Shown: positions 5,557-14,693 of the stretch, one piece after another
How the letters are laid out: every line of letters starts with the position of its first letter
Position numbering within the stretch: position 1 is the first letter of the stretch
NCBI RefSeq assembly: GCF_000346505.1
Contig: NZ_ANOH01000050.1
Coordinates: 1-64,000, forward strand
Direction of reading: 5' to 3'
From: Aporhodopirellula sallentina SM41
GTDB taxonomy: Bacteria > Planctomycetota > Planctomycetia > Pirellulales > Pirellulaceae
DNA: 64,000 nt
Made by a program: the position numbers and the translations under genes
The notes under the pieces: model-generated
What the model was told of the DNA's origin: nothing
The model's input: only the letters and a program-made list of their open reading frames with translations
The model's database searches: none

Positions 5557-6753
<1,197 letters not shown>

Positions 6754-6815
6754 AATTGCGTGGAACGGCTTTTAGCATTTAGCTTTCAGCCTCCATTCGC
6801 TAGAATCAGCCGAGA

Positions 6816-6851
6816 AAGCCTTGGATAGCGATTTTTTGCCATCCAGGGCTT
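6816..6851 (+). other. Stem-loop between tuf and tRNA-Trp
   Basis: An 11-bp stem (AAGCCTTGGAT with ATCCAGGGCTT, one G-U pair) closes a 14-nt loop that contains the only T-rich run. No T-tract follows the stem, so it is a poor intrinsic terminator. It may be a processing or partial termination site between tuf and the downstream tRNA-secE-nusG genes. Confidence 0.4.
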
Positions 6852-6967
6852 CGGCGATTCGTTAACATCCTTTCACCAAGGTGTTGACAAAACGTTCATC
6901 GACATCCGCACGGAACGGCTCACGGTGTATTTTCCGTAGTCACGATGTCCCGTTGCAACGATGTCAC

Positions 6968-7040
6968 AGGGGCGTAGCTCAATTGGCAGAGCACTGGTTT
7001 CCAAAACCAGCGGTTGTGAGTTCGACTCTCGCCGCCCCTG
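6968..7040 (+). tRNA. tRNA-Trp (anticodon CCA)
   Basis: The acceptor AGGGGCG pairs with CGCCCCT, discriminator G7040. The anticodon loop TTCCAAA gives CCA at 7001-7003, closed by CTGGT/ACCAG. It lies between tuf and secE, a position shared with many bacteria. CCA is not encoded. Confidence 0.96.
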
Positions 7041-7166
7041 CTTTCAGATCAAATACCAGATCGGGCCTTCATGACGGAGCCGGTCATTGCAGTTCCGTTC
7101 GCAGGAAGCCAGCGGAAAAGAGTTTTTAAAATCCTGCCGAACGATCGGCCGGGAAGGACCTAAGGG

Positions 7167-7613
7167 ATGTCAAAAGATATAACTCAATCTGGTGCAGCAG
7201 ACGCTCCCTTAGCGAGCGAACTGTTCCACGCCAACGTTTACAAGCCGAACCAAGGCCGCATCGTTCGGCAACTGACTGCCCTGGCCATCTTCGTCATCGT
7301 TGGCTTGGGCTGCTGGCGCCTGTATGGATTCCTGCCAACGCTGATGGAAAATGCGATTCTCGCTCGTTCCATCGCAGGAGTGCTGCTCGCCGCGGGACTG
7401 TGGTTCGGATTCCGCGTCGTCAACTGGCCGCGATTCGCCGATTTTCTGATCGCGGTCGAAGCCGAAATGAACAAGGTCACCTGGCCGAGCAAGGATGAAC
7501 TCAAACGGGCTGCCGTGGTTGTGATCTTTACCATCTTTTTCCTCGCCATCACGCTCTTCGCGTTTGACGTTATTTGGCAGTTCATCTTTAGCACCCTCAG
7601 AGTCACTTCGTGA
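7167..7613 (+). CDS. secE: Preprotein translocase subunit SecE
   Basis: SecE clamps SecY in the Sec translocon of the inner membrane. The hallmark amphipathic segment VEAEMNKVTWPSKDEL (about 97-112) precedes the last TM helix (about 114-138). Two further hydrophobic segments (about 35-55 and 65-83) give three predicted TM helices, as in E. coli, rather than the single helix of many bacteria. The 148 residues are preceded by a purine-rich ribosome binding region (gggaaggacctaaggg). The stop codon overlaps the GTG start of nusG, so the two are translationally coupled. Confidence 0.95.
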   Translation: MSKDITQSGAADAPLASELFHANVYKPNQGRIVRQLTALAIFVIVGLGCWRLYGFLPTLMENAILARSIAGVLLAAGLWFGFRVVNWPRFADFLIAVEAEMNKVTWPSKDELKRAAVVVIFTIFFLAITLFAFDVIWQFIFSTLRVTS

Positions 7614-8317
7614 GCGAAAACGAGATTAACGAGAACGAGACTGTCAACGAAGAAGATTCGGCCGCGATGGACGAGGTCGCCGATGACGCGACCGCTGAAA
7701 GCAACGCTCCCTCTCTGCCGCCAGCCGCTCCCGTGGACCCGAATGCACCTCCCAAACCTGAGGTGAACGATGAATCACCGATGGATTGGTACATCCTGAA
7801 GGTCGCATTCAACCGCGAAGATTCCATTGCCGAGGCCCTCCGCAAACGAATCAAAATGGAAGGCATGCAGGAGTACTTCGGCGACATCGTCGTTCCATCC
7901 GAAGACGTTGCCACCTTCACCCGTGACGGCAAACGCCGCGTTACCAAACGCAAATTGCTGCCCGGGTACATCATGGCCTACATGTCGATCAACGACGACA
8001 CCTGGTTCCTGGTTCGAGAAACGAACGGTATCAGTGACTTCACCGGCGCCGGCGGCAATCCGATGCCAATGGACCCCGAAGACGTCGATCGCTTTATCAA
8101 CCGCCCACTCGTCGACGACGAAGACGAAGCACCGATCAAAACCGCGATCCCGTTCAAAGTCGGCGATCGCGTTCGCGTCAAGGAAGGCAATTTCGAGAAT
8201 CAAGAAGGGGAAGTCGACGTGGTCGACGAAGCCAACGGTCGCGTAACGGTGATCATCAATATCTTCGGTCGCAGCGTCCCGATGGAACTCGACCATTGGC
8301 AAGTCGAACCGCTCTAA
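7610..8317 (+). CDS. nusG: Transcription termination/antitermination factor NusG
   Basis: NusG binds RNA polymerase and modulates pausing, Rho termination and coupling to translation. The 235 residues have an acidic, proline-rich N-terminal extension of about 55 residues (not in E. coli NusG), then the NGN domain (MDWYILKVAFNREDSIAEAL, LLPGYIMAYM) and a C-terminal KOW domain (FKVGDRVRVKEGNFENQEGEV). It starts with GTG inside the secE stop (GTGA overlap). Position before rplK matches the conserved secE-nusG-rplK order. Confidence 0.96.
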   Translation: MSENEINENETVNEEDSAAMDEVADDATAESNAPSLPPAAPVDPNAPPKPEVNDESPMDWYILKVAFNREDSIAEALRKRIKMEGMQEYFGDIVVPSEDVATFTRDGKRRVTKRKLLPGYIMAYMSINDDTWFLVRETNGISDFTGAGGNPMPMDPEDVDRFINRPLVDDEDEAPIKTAIPFKVGDRVRVKEGNFENQEGEVDVVDEANGRVTVIINIFGRSVPMELDHWQVEPL

Positions 8318-8451
8318 ACGGCACGACGCGCCATCCAGGCCGTCCCTCGCCCACTGATCGTTCGTTTGCCCACTCGTAATTTAACATTCCACATCACTCA
8401 CAAGTCCCGACGGAGCCTCGGCTCTTCGAGAACAGCTAAAAGCGTTTTCCC

Positions 8452-8877
8452 ATGGCAAAACAAGTTACCGGCCAAGCCAAATTCCAAGTCCCCGGTGGTC
8501 AAGCGACTCCCGCCCCTCCTGTAGGTACATCGCTCGGTAAGTTCGGTGTGAACCTGGGACAATTCGTTCAGCAGTTCAACGATCGCACCAAAGAGTACAA
8601 CGGTACCCCGATCCCCGTGATCGTGACCGTGTATAACGATCGCAGCTTCGACTTCATCACCAAGAGCCCACCGGCCGCATCGATGCTCAAGGCAGCAGCC
8701 GGGATCGCCAAAGGCAGCGGCGTGCCTAACAAAGACAAAGTCGGCAAGGTTACCCGTGCTCAGTGCGAAGAAATCGCTCAGAAGAAGATGGAAGACCTCA
8801 ACGCCCGCAGCATCGACCAAGCCGCGATGATGATCGAAGGAACCGCCCGCAGCATGGGTATCGTGGTCGAAGGCTAA
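8452..8877 (+). CDS. rplK: 50S ribosomal protein L11
   Basis: L11 binds the GTPase-associated region of 23S rRNA. Its 141 residues match the family length, with the conserved start (TGQAKFQVPGGQATPAPPVG), LGKFGVNLGQFVQQFN, and C-terminal RSMGIVVEG. Unusually, rplA does not follow. The gene is followed by an intrinsic terminator and then by a convergent, unrelated operon, so the ribosomal cluster stops here. Confidence 0.97.
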   Translation: MAKQVTGQAKFQVPGGQATPAPPVGTSLGKFGVNLGQFVQQFNDRTKEYNGTPIPVIVTVYNDRSFDFITKSPPAASMLKAAAGIAKGSGVPNKDKVGKVTRAQCEEIAQKKMEDLNARSIDQAAMMIEGTARSMGIVVEG

Positions 8878-9099: not shown

Positions 9100-10182
9100 C
9101 TACTGCGCCTTCGACCGGGTTCCGCGACTGCTGAAGATGATCGCTTGCCCGTCGAGCAACGGACGTGCGGCGGTCGCAAAACCTCGCTGATACAAGTGCT
9201 CTTTGAGCTGCCGCAGTTCGCCAAAGCTGTCGGGATAAACCCAAACCGTGATCGTCGTCGAATGCGGATCACGCCCGGCTAATTCGATGTCGAGGAAGCT
9301 GCGATCGCGGAGAACCTGCGCGACCGGCTGCCCGACCGAATCGTTGAGAGGTTCAAACGCGACCGCCCCGAGCCGCGTTGCCATGGCCATTGAGGTTCGG
9401 CCGTTTTGCGTCACGCGACCGACTTCTCGTTCGACAACATAGTTCGCGATGTAGTCTCGGATCGGGCCGACGGTGGACGCATCCTTGCCCGGTCGCTGCG
9501 TCATTCGCCTAGCATCTTCCTTGATTTGCTTCATCAGAGGTTCGACTGGCACGAGAGACAATTTCCCGGCCTTCAGACGGAAGTCGATCTCGTCTCCGAA
9601 GACCGTTTTGGCCATCGGCGTGGGAAGGTGCTCGACCGCAACCAATGGAGCTTCTTCGTTTTCCAATCGTTCTTTGGTGCCAGCCAACTCGGCAATTTCC
9701 GATTCGATTTCTCGGATCTGACGCTGATTTTTGGCGGCGAGAACCTTGGTCTCGTCTAGCTCGCTTTTTTTCTCTTCCCAGGCTGCTTCGGCGATACTCA
9801 ACAGGTCGAGCAACCGTCCGCGTGCGTCGGAAAGTCGGCTGATTTGATCGTTGTATCGTCTCAGATTCGCCTCAATCCGCATCGAGTCTCGCTGAGCCGA
9901 TGCGGCGCGCATCGCCATTTCACCGAGTTTGTCCAATTGAGCCCGCGAGGCGACTGCTTCGACCGGAGACTCCGGAGCCGGTTCGATTAACTTCTCAACA
10001 GGCTCATCGTTCTCAACGATTTGCAATTCGGACTCGACCGAATCCCGCAACATCTCGGTGATTCGTTGTGTTTGGGTTCCCAGGACGACCACGAGAATGA
10101 TCAGGATGCCCACGAGGTTAGCAACGATATCCAAGAATGCATCGTGACCGAGTTCAACCGTGCTGCGACGACGTCCGCTCAT
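9100..10182 (-). CDS. ExbD/TolR-like single-TM protein with coiled coil (third gene of the channel operon)
   Basis: I infer a proton-channel partner in the inner membrane. The 360 residues begin with a short basic N-terminus and one TM helix (about 16-36) that contains FLDIVANLVGILII. An aspartate at residue 18 sits where ExbD, TolR and MotB carry their essential membrane aspartate. A coiled coil (about 80-180, heptad-rich with many E, R, L) follows, then a globular domain (about 190-350) of no known family to me. The start overlaps the stop of the upstream gene by 4 bp. The topology should be N-in, C-out. No peptidoglycan-binding OmpA-like motif is visible, which argues against a classical MotB. 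Confidence 0.7.
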   Translation of the reverse strand: MSGRRRSTVELGHDAFLDIVANLVGILIILVVVLGTQTQRITEMLRDSVESELQIVENDEPVEKLIEPAPESPVEAVASRAQLDKLGEMAMRAASAQRDSMRIEANLRRYNDQISRLSDARGRLLDLLSIAEAAWEEKKSELDETKVLAAKNQRQIREIESEIAELAGTKERLENEEAPLVAVEHLPTPMAKTVFGDEIDFRLKAGKLSLVPVEPLMKQIKEDARRMTQRPGKDASTVGPIRDYIANYVVEREVGRVTQNGRTSMAMATRLGAVAFEPLNDSVGQPVAQVLRDRSFLDIELAGRDPHSTTITVWVYPDSFGELRQLKEHLYQRGFATAARPLLDGQAIIFSSRGTRSKAQ

Positions 10183-12395
10183 GGGGATCTCCTTACCACA
10201 TCAACACCGCTTCCCTGCATAAGAATTTGCAGTTCATGGAACCGTTGTTCCGCATGCGGACCGACGCTCACTTCGAGTTGTGGCTTCCAATAGCCGCCCT
10301 GCATGGTGGCCCCCCATCCCATGACGCGATCGCGGATCGCGGTGGCGAGTTGCAACGTTGCACCATGGACGTCCTGTTGCTCAAACGCAAACGTCTGAAC
10401 AACCTGACCTTGATCGACCAGTTCAAATCGGTCGTGGTGGCAACGCATGGAGATCGGTCGAACAAATTCGGTCCCCCCCATTCCGCGGAGCGACTCAGGC
10501 AGCGCCCAATCTTTCCCCTCTCGGCGGACCATCTTTTGGGTGACCTGAGGTGATTGCATTCCAGCCGAACCTTGTTCGGGCGACATTGGCTCGGGCAGGA
10601 ACGACGGATCCGGCTCGTTCAGCTTCATCGCCACGTCGGTCATCGGAGGAGAACCGGATGCCGACGAAGACATCGCCATTTGAGCGGATTGCCCCGACGG
10701 TGTTCCCGAAGCCATTGCCGACGCGGCGGCCGATTGAGCTGATGTTCCAGCCGCGGAGGTTCCCGCCATGGAAGCTCCCGGCGGAGATGCTCCGGCCGAA
10801 GACGACTCGCCATCGTTTCCAGTCGCCCCGGGTCTGCTTTCTCCGCTTGAATTTTCTCCGGAGGATGCCGCGAGACTGCCATCGGTTCCCGCCCCTGTGG
10901 CGTTTGCCGGGCCGTCAATTCCCGGCGGCTTTTTCCCTTGTAGGAAGTCATTGAGAGCTTCCGATTGAGTCGTCGTTCCGGCCGCGCCGTACGAACCACC
11001 CCGTGACCCGGGTGGCTCGGCAAACACGTTGCCCATTGAGTCAAACCGTTGGTCGCGGGCCAGCGAAAACCCATTGGATTGAGCTTGGCGATCAAGGTCG
11101 CGTGCCGACAGGGTTGGCAAAGGTCGGCTCGCCGATCGCGCCCGGCCTGACGTGCCCGCAGCACCAACGGGGGCCGCCGAACGTCCGCTTTGCGACTGCC
11201 CGGTGTAGGGTTGCTGGCCTCCTCCCGACTCGGACGCATACTCACTCGGCAACGGTTGGCCTGACGAGGACGCCCCCGATGCGTAGGATCCCCCCGTGTT
11301 CGGTTGCGAAGTTGCGTAGCGGGACGCGACGGAGGTTGATCCATAACCGCCCGCACCACCGCTGCCCCGACCACCAACACCGCCTGCTCCTGATGCGAAG
11401 TGGTAGTTGCGTGCGGCGGCTTCGTGGATCGCCAATTCCATGTTTTTACGCAATACATTGTCACCACCGGGAAACGCCAAATCGACTTCGCCCGGTACGA
11501 GTTCGTACCCGTATTGATCGTCCCAATCCTTCATCAACGCACTGGCGATGCGATACATGTAGATTCCGTCAGGTCGCACAATTAGCAACGGATACGGTGG
11601 CAGTTGATCTCCGTATTCCTGCATCGCATGCATGCGAGCGATGCCCAACGCGGCCCCCAACGGGTTGCTGCGAGGGTTTCGTGATTCGGTCGCGGCGAGA
11701 GCCTGCGCCTTGGTAATTCGAGCCCCCTCGGGAAGGATCTGCAGACCTTCGGCGGTGCACAGAACATAGATCGGACGACGCTGGGTTCCGTTGGGGCCAC
11801 GATGAGGCACGATGACCACGCGGGGCTTGTCACCTCGTTCACTCGATTCGAGTTCTTCGATCTCCGCTCGCAACTTCGCCGCCTCTTCTCGCATCAGGAC
11901 GAGGGTCTTCTCGTCCGTCTGAATGTCTTCGATTGGCCGTTCGCCTTCGGCCATGGCCGCATCGACCTCAGCGTTCAACTCGGCGAGCTTTTCCTTGATC
12001 TTTCGCATGTGCGACTCGAGGTGGGCGATCTCATCGCGTTTGCGTTCTAACTCGGCGGTTTGCTCGTCGCGAAAGGAGACCAACTGAGCGACACGGAACT
12101 GTTCCTGCTCGATCAATCGCTCGGCTGCCGTGGCGCTCATCTTCGTCGGCGGCACATCTTCATCGGTCTCGGCCGGCGGCGGTGATAACTTTGCCGAGGC
12201 GACCGCGACCGGCTGCTTATCCTTCGCGTTTACGGCGAGTTTTTCCTGCTTCTCTTGCTCCACCTGCGCAACCGCAGCGTCGTTGGCCTGCTGGGCAACC
12301 AACGCGAGCAACAAGATCAACGTCCCCAAGGTGCAAATCAGCACCGCGAGGAACGGGAAGAGCGACGGTGATATTCCGGCGCGGCGCCGACTCAT
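10179..12395 (-). CDS. Large ExbD-like single-TM protein with coiled coil and low-complexity region (second gene of the channel operon)
   Basis: The 738-residue protein has a basic N-terminus (MSRRRAG), a TM helix (about 12-34, FPFLAVLICTLGTLILLL), a coiled coil (about 88-186), a folded domain (about 190-335), a long Gly/Ser/Ala-rich low-complexity stretch (about 335-620) and a C-terminal domain (about 640-738). The TM helix aligns without gaps to that of the next gene, but alanine (residue 17) replaces the aspartate. The folded domain begins RPIYVLCTAEGLQILPEG and the C-terminal one RPISMRCHHDRFELVDQG, so they may be copies of one domain. Both neighbours overlap it by 4 bp. I know of no characterised homologue; the role as channel partner is inferred from topology and context. 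Confidence 0.65.
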   Translation of the reverse strand: MSRRRAGISPSLFPFLAVLICTLGTLILLLALVAQQANDAAVAQVEQEKQEKLAVNAKDKQPVAVASAKLSPPPAETDEDVPPTKMSATAAERLIEQEQFRVAQLVSFRDEQTAELERKRDEIAHLESHMRKIKEKLAELNAEVDAAMAEGERPIEDIQTDEKTLVLMREEAAKLRAEIEELESSERGDKPRVVIVPHRGPNGTQRRPIYVLCTAEGLQILPEGARITKAQALAATESRNPRSNPLGAALGIARMHAMQEYGDQLPPYPLLIVRPDGIYMYRIASALMKDWDDQYGYELVPGEVDLAFPGGDNVLRKNMELAIHEAAARNYHFASGAGGVGGRGSGGAGGYGSTSVASRYATSQPNTGGSYASGASSSGQPLPSEYASESGGGQQPYTGQSQSGRSAAPVGAAGTSGRARSASRPLPTLSARDLDRQAQSNGFSLARDQRFDSMGNVFAEPPGSRGGSYGAAGTTTQSEALNDFLQGKKPPGIDGPANATGAGTDGSLAASSGENSSGESRPGATGNDGESSSAGASPPGASMAGTSAAGTSAQSAAASAMASGTPSGQSAQMAMSSSASGSPPMTDVAMKLNEPDPSFLPEPMSPEQGSAGMQSPQVTQKMVRREGKDWALPESLRGMGGTEFVRPISMRCHHDRFELVDQGQVVQTFAFEQQDVHGATLQLATAIRDRVMGWGATMQGGYWKPQLEVSVGPHAEQRFHELQILMQGSGVDVVRRSP

Positions 12396-13909
12396 GCCGC
12401 ACGTCCTAGCGAGCCACGGTTGGCCGAAGCGTTTGCTTTCGCGGCCGGTTCAACATTCGATCGTCCGGGACGTCCCGGCGAGGCATTCGCCCGGGTGGGG
12501 CGTTCGGCGGCCTGAGGCAAACGCGTCGAGAGCATTTCAACGGCTCGTGCGAGCGTCGTCATGGCCTGCGTGACGGCGGGATCGAGAGCCGGCCCGTTTG
12601 TTTCGGTGCGATTTTGAGTCTCGATCGCCTGCAACAACGTGTTCCGCAGCGACGCGTCCTGATCGCTCTGACGCGACGCCAGTGTGGTCATCGCCTCGGT
12701 GTGAGTCAGCAACGTCCGACGATGAGTTTGCACCTCGGTCGCGGTCTCCTCCATCGCACCACGCCACAACGAAGTTTGCTCTCGCAGTGCGTTTTCGACC
12801 GCGTTGGCGGCACCGTCGAGACGTCCGATCGACGCATCGATCCGGTCGGCGTGATGGGTCAGAGCCGGCTTCATTGCGGACTGCAATAGATGACGGAACT
12901 GCTCGGCACCTTCGGTGTGCTGGCTCCGCCACGCTTCCTGTGCCTCCTCGATTGTCTCTCGCCACAATTTGGCTTGGGTCGCCAAAGACTCCGCAACCGC
13001 GGTTTCGATCCCACTGCACAGATGCGTGATCATCGCAGTTTGATTGTCGGCAGGGTTGTCCGCGGGCAATCCGAGCGACACCAGGTTCCGGACCCGCTCA
13101 TCGATATCAACGAGCAGACTCTGCATGCCGCGTTCGACCGGGAATTGCAAAAAGATCGCAACGACCGACAGCACCAATCCCAACGCGGTTGTATCGAACG
13201 CCACGTACAACCCGCTCTTGAGCCGGTCGACCGCGGCGGTCCCGTCGGTAAAGTCGAGCCCGCCGAGCGTTTGGGTAATCCCGATCACGGTACCCAAGAA
13301 GCCTAACATCGGAATTGCCCAGACGATGATGCGAATCAAACCGAGCGCGTCGTGCGCGGCGTCGGCATCACGAACGGACAACTCGCGAAGGTCTTCGGGC
13401 AATTCGGTCGTGGTGGCTCGGTGTGACTGTCGCGTGAGGACTTCGTCGAGCCGCCGTACGAGCGAACTTTGCCGCGTCGATCCCGGCAATCCGGCCAGCG
13501 CCGCACGCCACGATCGCGCGACGTATCCGGCATCGTTGTCGTTCTGCCAACGTTCCGCCGGCGAAGTGTTTTCTTTGTCCGACTGAGGAGGCGGCATCAG
13601 ATCGGCATCGCGTAGCAACCGCAGCGACCGTTGCTGCGACGCGGTATCGAGCGTCATGAACGCCAAAATGGACACCGCCACCGTGAACAGCATCGTTGCC
13701 GCGACGGCGACAGGGTGGCCCATGAAATATCGATTCAGCGGAGCCCAGTTCACCGTCATGACAAAGGCATAGAAGGCGCAACCGCCCGCCAAACCGATAA
13801 CCAGAGGCGTCAACTTGCCTAACATCGTCGCGGATTGCGGCGGCCGAATCGGGCCAGGCGATTCGTGCGTCGATTGGTCTTGCGAGACGTCTTCGGGAGT
13901 TTGAGTCAT
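12392..13909 (-). CDS. MotA/TolQ/ExbB-family proton channel protein with long C-terminal tail (first gene of the channel operon)
   Basis: The protein should form the pentameric channel core of an inner-membrane, ion-driven machine. Of 505 residues, TM helices lie at about 33-51, 65-86, 192-213 and 234-256. TM3 carries IPMLGFLGTVIGITQTLGGL and TM4 YVAFDTTALGLVLSVVA, the TolQ/ExbB signature. A cytoplasmic loop of about 100 residues separates the helix pairs. After TM4 comes a helical, Gln/Glu/Thr-rich tail of about 250 residues, much longer than in TolQ or ExbB and reminiscent of ZorA from the Zorya defence system. Two ExbD-like genes follow with 4-bp overlaps. No tonB, tolA, tolB, zorC, zorD or zorE is present, so the coupled process is unknown. 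Confidence 0.82.
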   Translation of the reverse strand: MTQTPEDVSQDQSTHESPGPIRPPQSATMLGKLTPLVIGLAGGCAFYAFVMTVNWAPLNRYFMGHPVAVAATMLFTVAVSILAFMTLDTASQQRSLRLLRDADLMPPPQSDKENTSPAERWQNDNDAGYVARSWRAALAGLPGSTRQSSLVRRLDEVLTRQSHRATTTELPEDLRELSVRDADAAHDALGLIRIIVWAIPMLGFLGTVIGITQTLGGLDFTDGTAAVDRLKSGLYVAFDTTALGLVLSVVAIFLQFPVERGMQSLLVDIDERVRNLVSLGLPADNPADNQTAMITHLCSGIETAVAESLATQAKLWRETIEEAQEAWRSQHTEGAEQFRHLLQSAMKPALTHHADRIDASIGRLDGAANAVENALREQTSLWRGAMEETATEVQTHRRTLLTHTEAMTTLASRQSDQDASLRNTLLQAIETQNRTETNGPALDPAVTQAMTTLARAVEMLSTRLPQAAERPTRANASPGRPGRSNVEPAAKANASANRGSLGRAA

Positions 13910-14180: not shown

Positions 14181-14693
14181 ATGTTCACTAACTTTCTCCT
14201 CACATCGCTTCGCAAGTTCGCCCCCAGCCTGCTGCCTTTGTTTGTCGGGATAGTGATCGGGGGCGTCTGGGTATCGGAGAAATCGCTCTCCGTGACGGCT
14301 CAGACACCGAATTTTGGTCCCACCGGCACCGATGGATACACCGACGCGTCGACGGACGATGCGACTCCGCGAAAGTTAGGCGAAGATGGCCCCCGGTTTG
14401 GGCAGGTCGTCGGCGACCGAGTTTCGGTAATCGAGGCTCGCGATGGGCGTGACGTTGCCGGTTCGGGGGATTTGATCGGATTTTCCCACGTTGACGACTC
14501 GGGAACTCAAGTAATTACGATCGTAGATGCGGAAAAACGATGGATGGCCGTGTATCATGTGGGTTCTGAAGGCAAAATCCGGCTGGCGAGCAGCCGTGAA
14601 ATTGCCGCCGACTTCACATTAGAACTGAACGTCACCCCACCGCTGCCCGATCAAATCCGTCGGATGCAAGGACTTCCGCCGCGATCCCATTGA
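14181..14693 (+). CDS. Membrane-anchored hypothetical protein
   Basis: I do not recognise this 170-residue protein. Residues about 13-30 form one hydrophobic segment (LLPLFVGIVIGGVWV), likely a signal anchor, and the rest is polar and probably periplasmic. The segment from about 100 to 145 (VITIVDAEKRWMAVYHV, GKIRLASSREIAADF) reads like a small beta-rich fold. It is divergent from the channel operon across a 271-bp spacer and 118 bp upstream of the HTH-TM gene. Codon use and the conserved-looking C-terminus support it as a real gene. Confidence 0.6.
   Translation: MFTNFLLTSLRKFAPSLLPLFVGIVIGGVWVSEKSLSVTAQTPNFGPTGTDGYTDASTDDATPRKLGEDGPRFGQVVGDRVSVIEARDGRDVAGSGDLIGFSHVDDSGTQVITIVDAEKRWMAVYHVGSEGKIRLASSREIAADFTLELNVTPPLPDQIRRMQGLPPRSH

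Follow-up and report, generated by a model that had tools for sequence, protein, structure and literature searches.

A planctomycete operon for a putative TolQR-type motor with two unlike axle proteins, of which usually one carries the proton-carrier acid

The window analysed here, a stretch of 64,000 nucleotides from Aporhodopirellula sallentina SM41 (contig NZ_ANOH01000050.1, positions 1 to 64,000), contains a compact operon of three genes, which we term A, B and C (Table 1). As had been read from the nucleotide sequence in the original prediction, the open reading frames between positions 9100 and 13909 overlap by 4 bp at both the A/B and the B/C junction. All three lie on the minus strand. 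The trio is flanked on one side by rplK, nusG, secE and tuf and on the other by two divergent genes, FloA and hydrolases, and the flanking genes bear out the claim that no TonB, TolA, Pal, OmpA, nuclease or helicase gene adjoins it. The downstream rplK-nusG-secE-tuf block is common only to the closest relatives. Within the window, tuf, tRNA-Trp, secE, nusG and rplK are grouped at 5557-8877, the usual next gene rplA is absent after rplK, and the trio is convergent with rplK at the place where rplA would stand.

Table 1. Features of the A-B-C operon and of two genes upstream of A (window coordinates)
Feature	Position	Strand	Basis or remark
Gene A, MotA/TolQ/ExbB-family wheel subunit, 505 aa	12392-13909	minus	PF01618 match and hydropathy
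TM3/TM4 pore segment of A (residues 186-262); GFLGTVIG and FDTT are conserved	13124-13354	minus	Conserved columns; comparison with E. coli ExbB
A codon D239, Asp of FDTT (Asn in variant wheel A')	13193-13195	minus	Conserved columns
A residues 263-505, predicted cytoplasmic tail	12395-13123	minus	Hydropathy and weak coiled-coil-type matches
Gene B, putative acid-less axle subunit, 738 aa	10179-12395	minus	
B residues 12-36, TM helix LFPFLAVLICTLGTLILLL	12288-12362	minus	
B codon A17, position of the ExbD/TolR proton-carrier Asp	12345-12347	minus	Profile alignment with C
B residues 88-186, predicted helical shaft (coiled coil)	11838-12134	minus	AlphaFold2 model
Domain D1 of B (residues 190-334), strands and helices in a TolR-like order	11394-11828	minus	AlphaFold2 model
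B residues 336-618, 283-residue Ser/Gly/Ala/Pro-rich flexible linker	10542-11390	minus	Composition; pLDDT mostly <50
Domain D2 of B (residues 619-738), strands and helices in a TolR-like order	10182-10541	minus	AlphaFold2 model
Gene C, putative acid-bearing axle subunit, 360 aa	9100-10182	minus	
C residues 13-42, TM helix with DxFLD...NLVG	10057-10146	minus	
C codons D14 to D18, with D18 as predicted proton carrier	10129-10143	minus	
C residues 80-175, single long helix (predicted coiled-coil shaft)	9658-9945	minus	AlphaFold2 model
C residues 197-350, periplasmic domain, TolR-like order	9133-9594	minus	AlphaFold2 model, pLDDT mostly >90
orf170, one N-terminal TM helix and a domain with no Pfam match	14181-14693	plus	Conserved next to the HTH gene, upstream of A, in 39/97 loci
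HTH gene: N-terminal HTH_17, acidic linker, C-terminal TM helix	14812-16587	plus	PF12728, 29.6 bits

Among the 97 loci with enough flank for neighbour counts, the HTH_17 gene recurs upstream of A in 48, always in divergent orientation. Like orf170 it is hence a recurrent neighbour, yet neither gene is class-wide. Its product would be a membrane-bound DNA-binding protein, the long acidic linker being rich in Ser, Gly and Asp, whereas orf170, whose conserved domain reads GFSHxDxxGTQxITxVxxxxxWMAVYHV, may belong to the A-B-C machine.

Protein A is a member of the MotA/TolQ/ExbB family, as had been proposed: a profile search with PF01618 (MotA_ExbB) gave 51.3 bits (E 1.3e-13) against a cut-off of 22.9. 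Hydropathy predicts four TM helices; the tail behind them comprises about 243 residues, near the 250 or so originally estimated. The two motifs with Thr in the proton path of ExbB, GFLGTV and TT, are retained in A. ZorA profiles are among the best family matches of A (PADLOC 36.6 bits; NCBIfam 26.6 bits), and the closest solved chain is 8VVI (E 0.008), a type II ZorA (PMC11890865). One could thus imagine a Zorya-like sensor or defence device in which the long tail of A signals to the cytoplasm, and a defence-like machine had indeed been suggested at the outset. From our point of view, however, this is very improbable, as the NCBIfam score compares with a cut-off of 700, the Pfam ExbB match is stronger, genes for ZorC, ZorD and ZorE were not found nearby, and the trio is near-universal in its family, unlike a defence island. 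A defence system was accordingly rejected and the earlier suggestion dropped, the three genes being core, mostly single copy and without an effector partner.

B and C had been described as ExbD-like proteins with long coiled coils. Each has one N-terminal TM helix by hydropathy that resembles the carrier helix of ExbD, and the AlphaFold2 models contain the expected long helices; the ExbD profile, however, recognises neither protein. No match to PF02472 (ExbD) was obtained for B or C at E 1, a whole-genome search with the same profile returned 10 matching places that include neither of them, and no Pfam, NCBIfam or PADLOC family lies above its cut-off for either. Alignment of B and C to an ExbD profile with hhalign yielded a probability below 1, but this comparison carries little weight, as the ExbD set was small and included at least one sequence in the wrong frame. 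No curated profile tested claims the trio beyond the wheel family. The idea of an ion-driven MotA/ExbB-class machine with two single-TM partners is supported.

The periplasmic parts point in the direction of TolR. In the models, domains D1 and D2 of B, seen at about 208-334 and at 642-735, respectively, both follow the strand/helix order of E. coli TolR (PMC4646322), as does C (mean pLDDT 83) with additions at the start, and D1 and D2 are homologous to each other (hhalign probability 88.8, E 2.5e-6). Foldseek searches with the whole chains of B and C returned no PDB match that reached E 0.001, TolR (5by4) ranking eighth for B at E 0.13. We infer from the models that the periplasmic domains of both proteins may have a TolR-like fold.

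The most unusual feature of the trio, overlooked in the original prediction, is that the proton-carrier acid is present in C yet not in B. The segment VTPFIDVMLVL of E. coli ExbD corresponds to DAFLDIVANLVG in C and to LFPFLAVLICTLG in B; the Asp of the FLD motif of C matches that of PFIDVM by eye, and the TM profiles of B and C align along the whole helix, with D18 of C on A17 of B (probability 92, E 5.8e-7). D18 is found in 153 of 153 distinct homologues of C and D14 in 151 of them. At the corresponding site of B, 132 of 149 genes have a non-acidic residue (Ala 127, Thr 3, Ser 1, Gly 1) and 17 an acid (Asp 16, Glu 1). Sister trios show the same pattern, with no acid in B and an Asp in C, and related two-partner types carry an acid in both partners. 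One of the latter resides in the same genome (L165, 2019-7620), a second MotA-like system with a protein of 1116 aa that has a MotA_ExbB domain near its end and partners of 551 and 198 aa with FLD in the TM helix of both.

Conservation of the trio as a unit across planctomycetes, which the original prediction had named as a check, is borne out. The complete trio occurs in the same gene order in 105 fetched planctomycete loci (a set in which a few genomes are counted twice), and the 4-bp overlap between A and B is kept in 86 of them, so that the co-occurrence in fixed order exceeds chance. Of the 60 family genomes, 58 have C, among them all 47 of good quality, and across the class Planctomycetia C is present in 250 of 298, its nearest named relatives being those of Aporhodopirellula (Rhodopirellula) rubra (89%) and Aporhodopirellula aestuarii (87%). 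The absences are concentrated in one family (code f91), where B and C were lost jointly; among 20 class genomes without C, 18 have no B either, and one of the remaining two has B at a contig edge. Since B and C are lost together, the genes of the trio are inherited together. Outside the class, C finds weak matches only, and those that were fetched are sister systems. The trio probably represents the core of a proton-driven envelope motor in nearly all budding planctomycetes.

The 17 acid-bearing B genes lead to a second wheel. This variant, A', carries GTVxHFG (with a His) in place of the canonical GTVxG and FNTT (with an Asn) in place of FDTT. The first acid-bearing B genes to be found (L157, L224, L225 and L228) are scattered on the C tree; in each case canonical A is missing or replaced, and an A' gene lies near the trio or elsewhere in the genome. 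Overall, none of the 126 B genes that adjoin canonical A has an acid, whereas B has one in 17 of 19 A' holders, a contrast of raw counts that ignores kinship. An independent-pairs test, which takes kinship into account and comprises six pairs only, found loss of canonical A concordant with the B acid in 5.9 of 6 pairs on average and never opposite (median p 0.031). The C tree, with 86 rows, requires 8 changes of the B acid, and at least 6 of these fall on supported branches.

Two predictions of the B residue were fixed in advance and came true in 2 of 3 and 12 of 13 cases, respectively. In the first, G441 with canonical A has Ala as predicted and G547 with A' has Glu, an acid though Asp had been forecast, whereas G504 has Ser despite its A'. 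For the second, an A' profile singled out 18 genomes with at least 350 bits (canonical A scores no higher than 250), and 13 of these A' genomes had previously been unchecked; 12 have Asp, the exception being G713, an A' holder with Ala in B in which canonical A also adjoins B. A strict rule by which A' entails an acid in B is thus broken by G504 and G713. Nor is it a general rule that the Asp of FDTT in A excludes an acid in B: sister types disobey it, and L271 combines FNTT with Ala in B.

The operon still contains a degenerate A in the g408 group of family f79 and in L157; this A is devoid of both Thr motifs and could possibly act as a second, inactive wheel subunit. The loci L311-L314 and L157 (1976-3427) combine such an operon A with an A' elsewhere in the genome. 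On a tree of B, built from its two domains by a quick method, the acid is again scattered, with 6 changes needed and 2 forced by supported branches, and L157 falls inside a strongly supported acid-less group. From this position it follows that B would have been switched in place and not imported, and judged by these sequences a change of the acid in place is the most likely course. Whether one motor has repeatedly been switched between a one-carrier and a two-carrier axle, each time with an exchange of the wheel, we regard as an even bet.

Based on these data, we propose that A, B and C form an inner-membrane proton-driven motor of the 5:2 type known from TolQR, ExbBD and MotAB. Five A subunits would make up the wheel, and one helix each of B and C the axle inside it (5:1:1). 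Protons would pass via Asp18 of C, with D14 perhaps also taking part, and B, with Ala17, would carry none in most species; upon exchange of A for A', B would regain the acid and the axle would have two carriers. Rotation or rocking of the axle would be passed on through the coiled-coil shaft to the TolR-like periplasmic domains, and the second domain of B, on its flexible linker of about 280 residues, could reach the cell wall or the outer membrane. The long shaft and the tethered second domain suggest that the motor acts there. We give this model, a TolQR-type motor with a B-C heterodimer as axle and one proton-binding subunit (or two in the A' lineages), a probability of about 0.6. As to its cellular role, upkeep of the envelope during budding is our best guess, and a weak one.

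As the key residue of B changes along with the wheel, the simplest reading would place the helix of B in the pore of A beside that of C. The main rival to the axle model is that B is a force transducer of the TonB or TolA kind outside an A5C2 motor, its helix having no acid because it never enters the pore. This is a less probable alternative, albeit one to be taken seriously, as B is built like TonB and TolA, with a single TM helix, an extended flexible linker and a globular domain at its end. In addition, TonB_C and TolB_N have no match in the whole genome despite the ten ExbD matches, from which it follows that the force transducers of this organism lie outside the profile families tested. 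On the other hand, the helices of B and C align over their full length, and the B helix is devoid of His, a residue that TonB and TolA use in their SHLS motif (PMC12204202). The key site of the B helix, moreover, changes to Asp or Glu together with the exchange of the wheel gene, as expected of a pore helix. It is also conceivable that one wheel serves two motors, a proton-driven A5C2 and an unpowered or regulatory A5B2. AglRQ and AglRS are thought to be able to form separately, the pairing of AglQ with AglS being unknown (PMC9389320); however, the presence of one B per C, the tightly overlapping operon, the joint loss and the matching shafts favour a B-C pair and leave this arrangement improbable.

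MotAB, ExbBD and TolQR are currently modelled with a symmetric axle that has two equivalent proton carriers. If the switch occurs as outlined above, motors of the 5:2 type need no symmetric axle, and the number of protons per turn can evolve. A one-carrier machine conserved across a class, with two-carrier sister lineages, would allow a direct test of what the second carrier contributes. The trio would also add a core envelope motor to what is known of these bacteria, which bud without FtsZ.

Compared with known systems, the trio shares with ZorAB of Zorya a MotA-like wheel with a long cytoplasmic tail; the Zorya partner and effector genes are, however, absent at the trio, and ZorB has the proton-carrier Asp, for which a D24N variant was tested (PMC11890865). 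With TolQR of the Tol-Pal system and ExbBD of the Ton system it has in common the wheel family, an axle helix of the PFxDV type and the TolR-like periplasmic order. It differs from both in its four-TM, long-tailed wheel, its two axle genes, whose products stay below PF02472 detection, the coiled-coil shafts, and the lack of adjoining TolA, TolB, Pal or TonB genes, and a canonical Tol-Pal or Ton system was rejected on the absence of these partners and of TolB_N and TonB_C from the genome. Sister trios in Planctomycetota (L167-L172, L177) likewise combine an A-type wheel with two small coiled-coil partners, but their B, of about 272 aa, is too short for a linker and a second domain. These trios also occur outside the class, with wheels of 450-660 aa, LFPFLS in B and LDSLLD in a C of about 372 aa. 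The two-acid types (L174-L176, L165) again have an A-type wheel and two coiled-coil partners, both of which carry the acid.

The closest parallels bear on the claim that the partner set is unlike that of any known ion-driven family, for which we found no support. In the PVC group, planctomycetes included, TolQ-like genes have been described that are accompanied by pairs of unlike TolR-like genes (PMC12204202), and these TolQ-like/vWA systems share with the trio a TolQ-like wheel and an unlike partner pair. The vWA pairs described, however, have one Asp per monomer, and the trio operon has no vWA or TPR gene; a vWA transducer cluster was rejected, as a profile search found no vWA match in A, B, C or the genes next to the operon. 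AglRQS of Myxococcus, too, consists of one MotA/TolQ-like protein and two different single-TM proteins of the TolR/MotB type (PMC9389320). Both AglQ and AglS have the conserved Asp (PMC9389320), whereas B of the trio is without it in most species and has two domains and a long linker, and gliding genes were not recognised near the trio. One wheel with two unlike partners is hence already known. The text of a Planctopirus essential-gene paper (PMC10632474) makes no reference to Tol, MotA or proton-channel genes, and a limited search of open papers returned no account of the trio operon, of an acid-less axle subunit or of a wheel-linked switch. Within the scope of that search, what is new here is the acid-less axle subunit and the acid switch that accompanies the exchange of the wheel.
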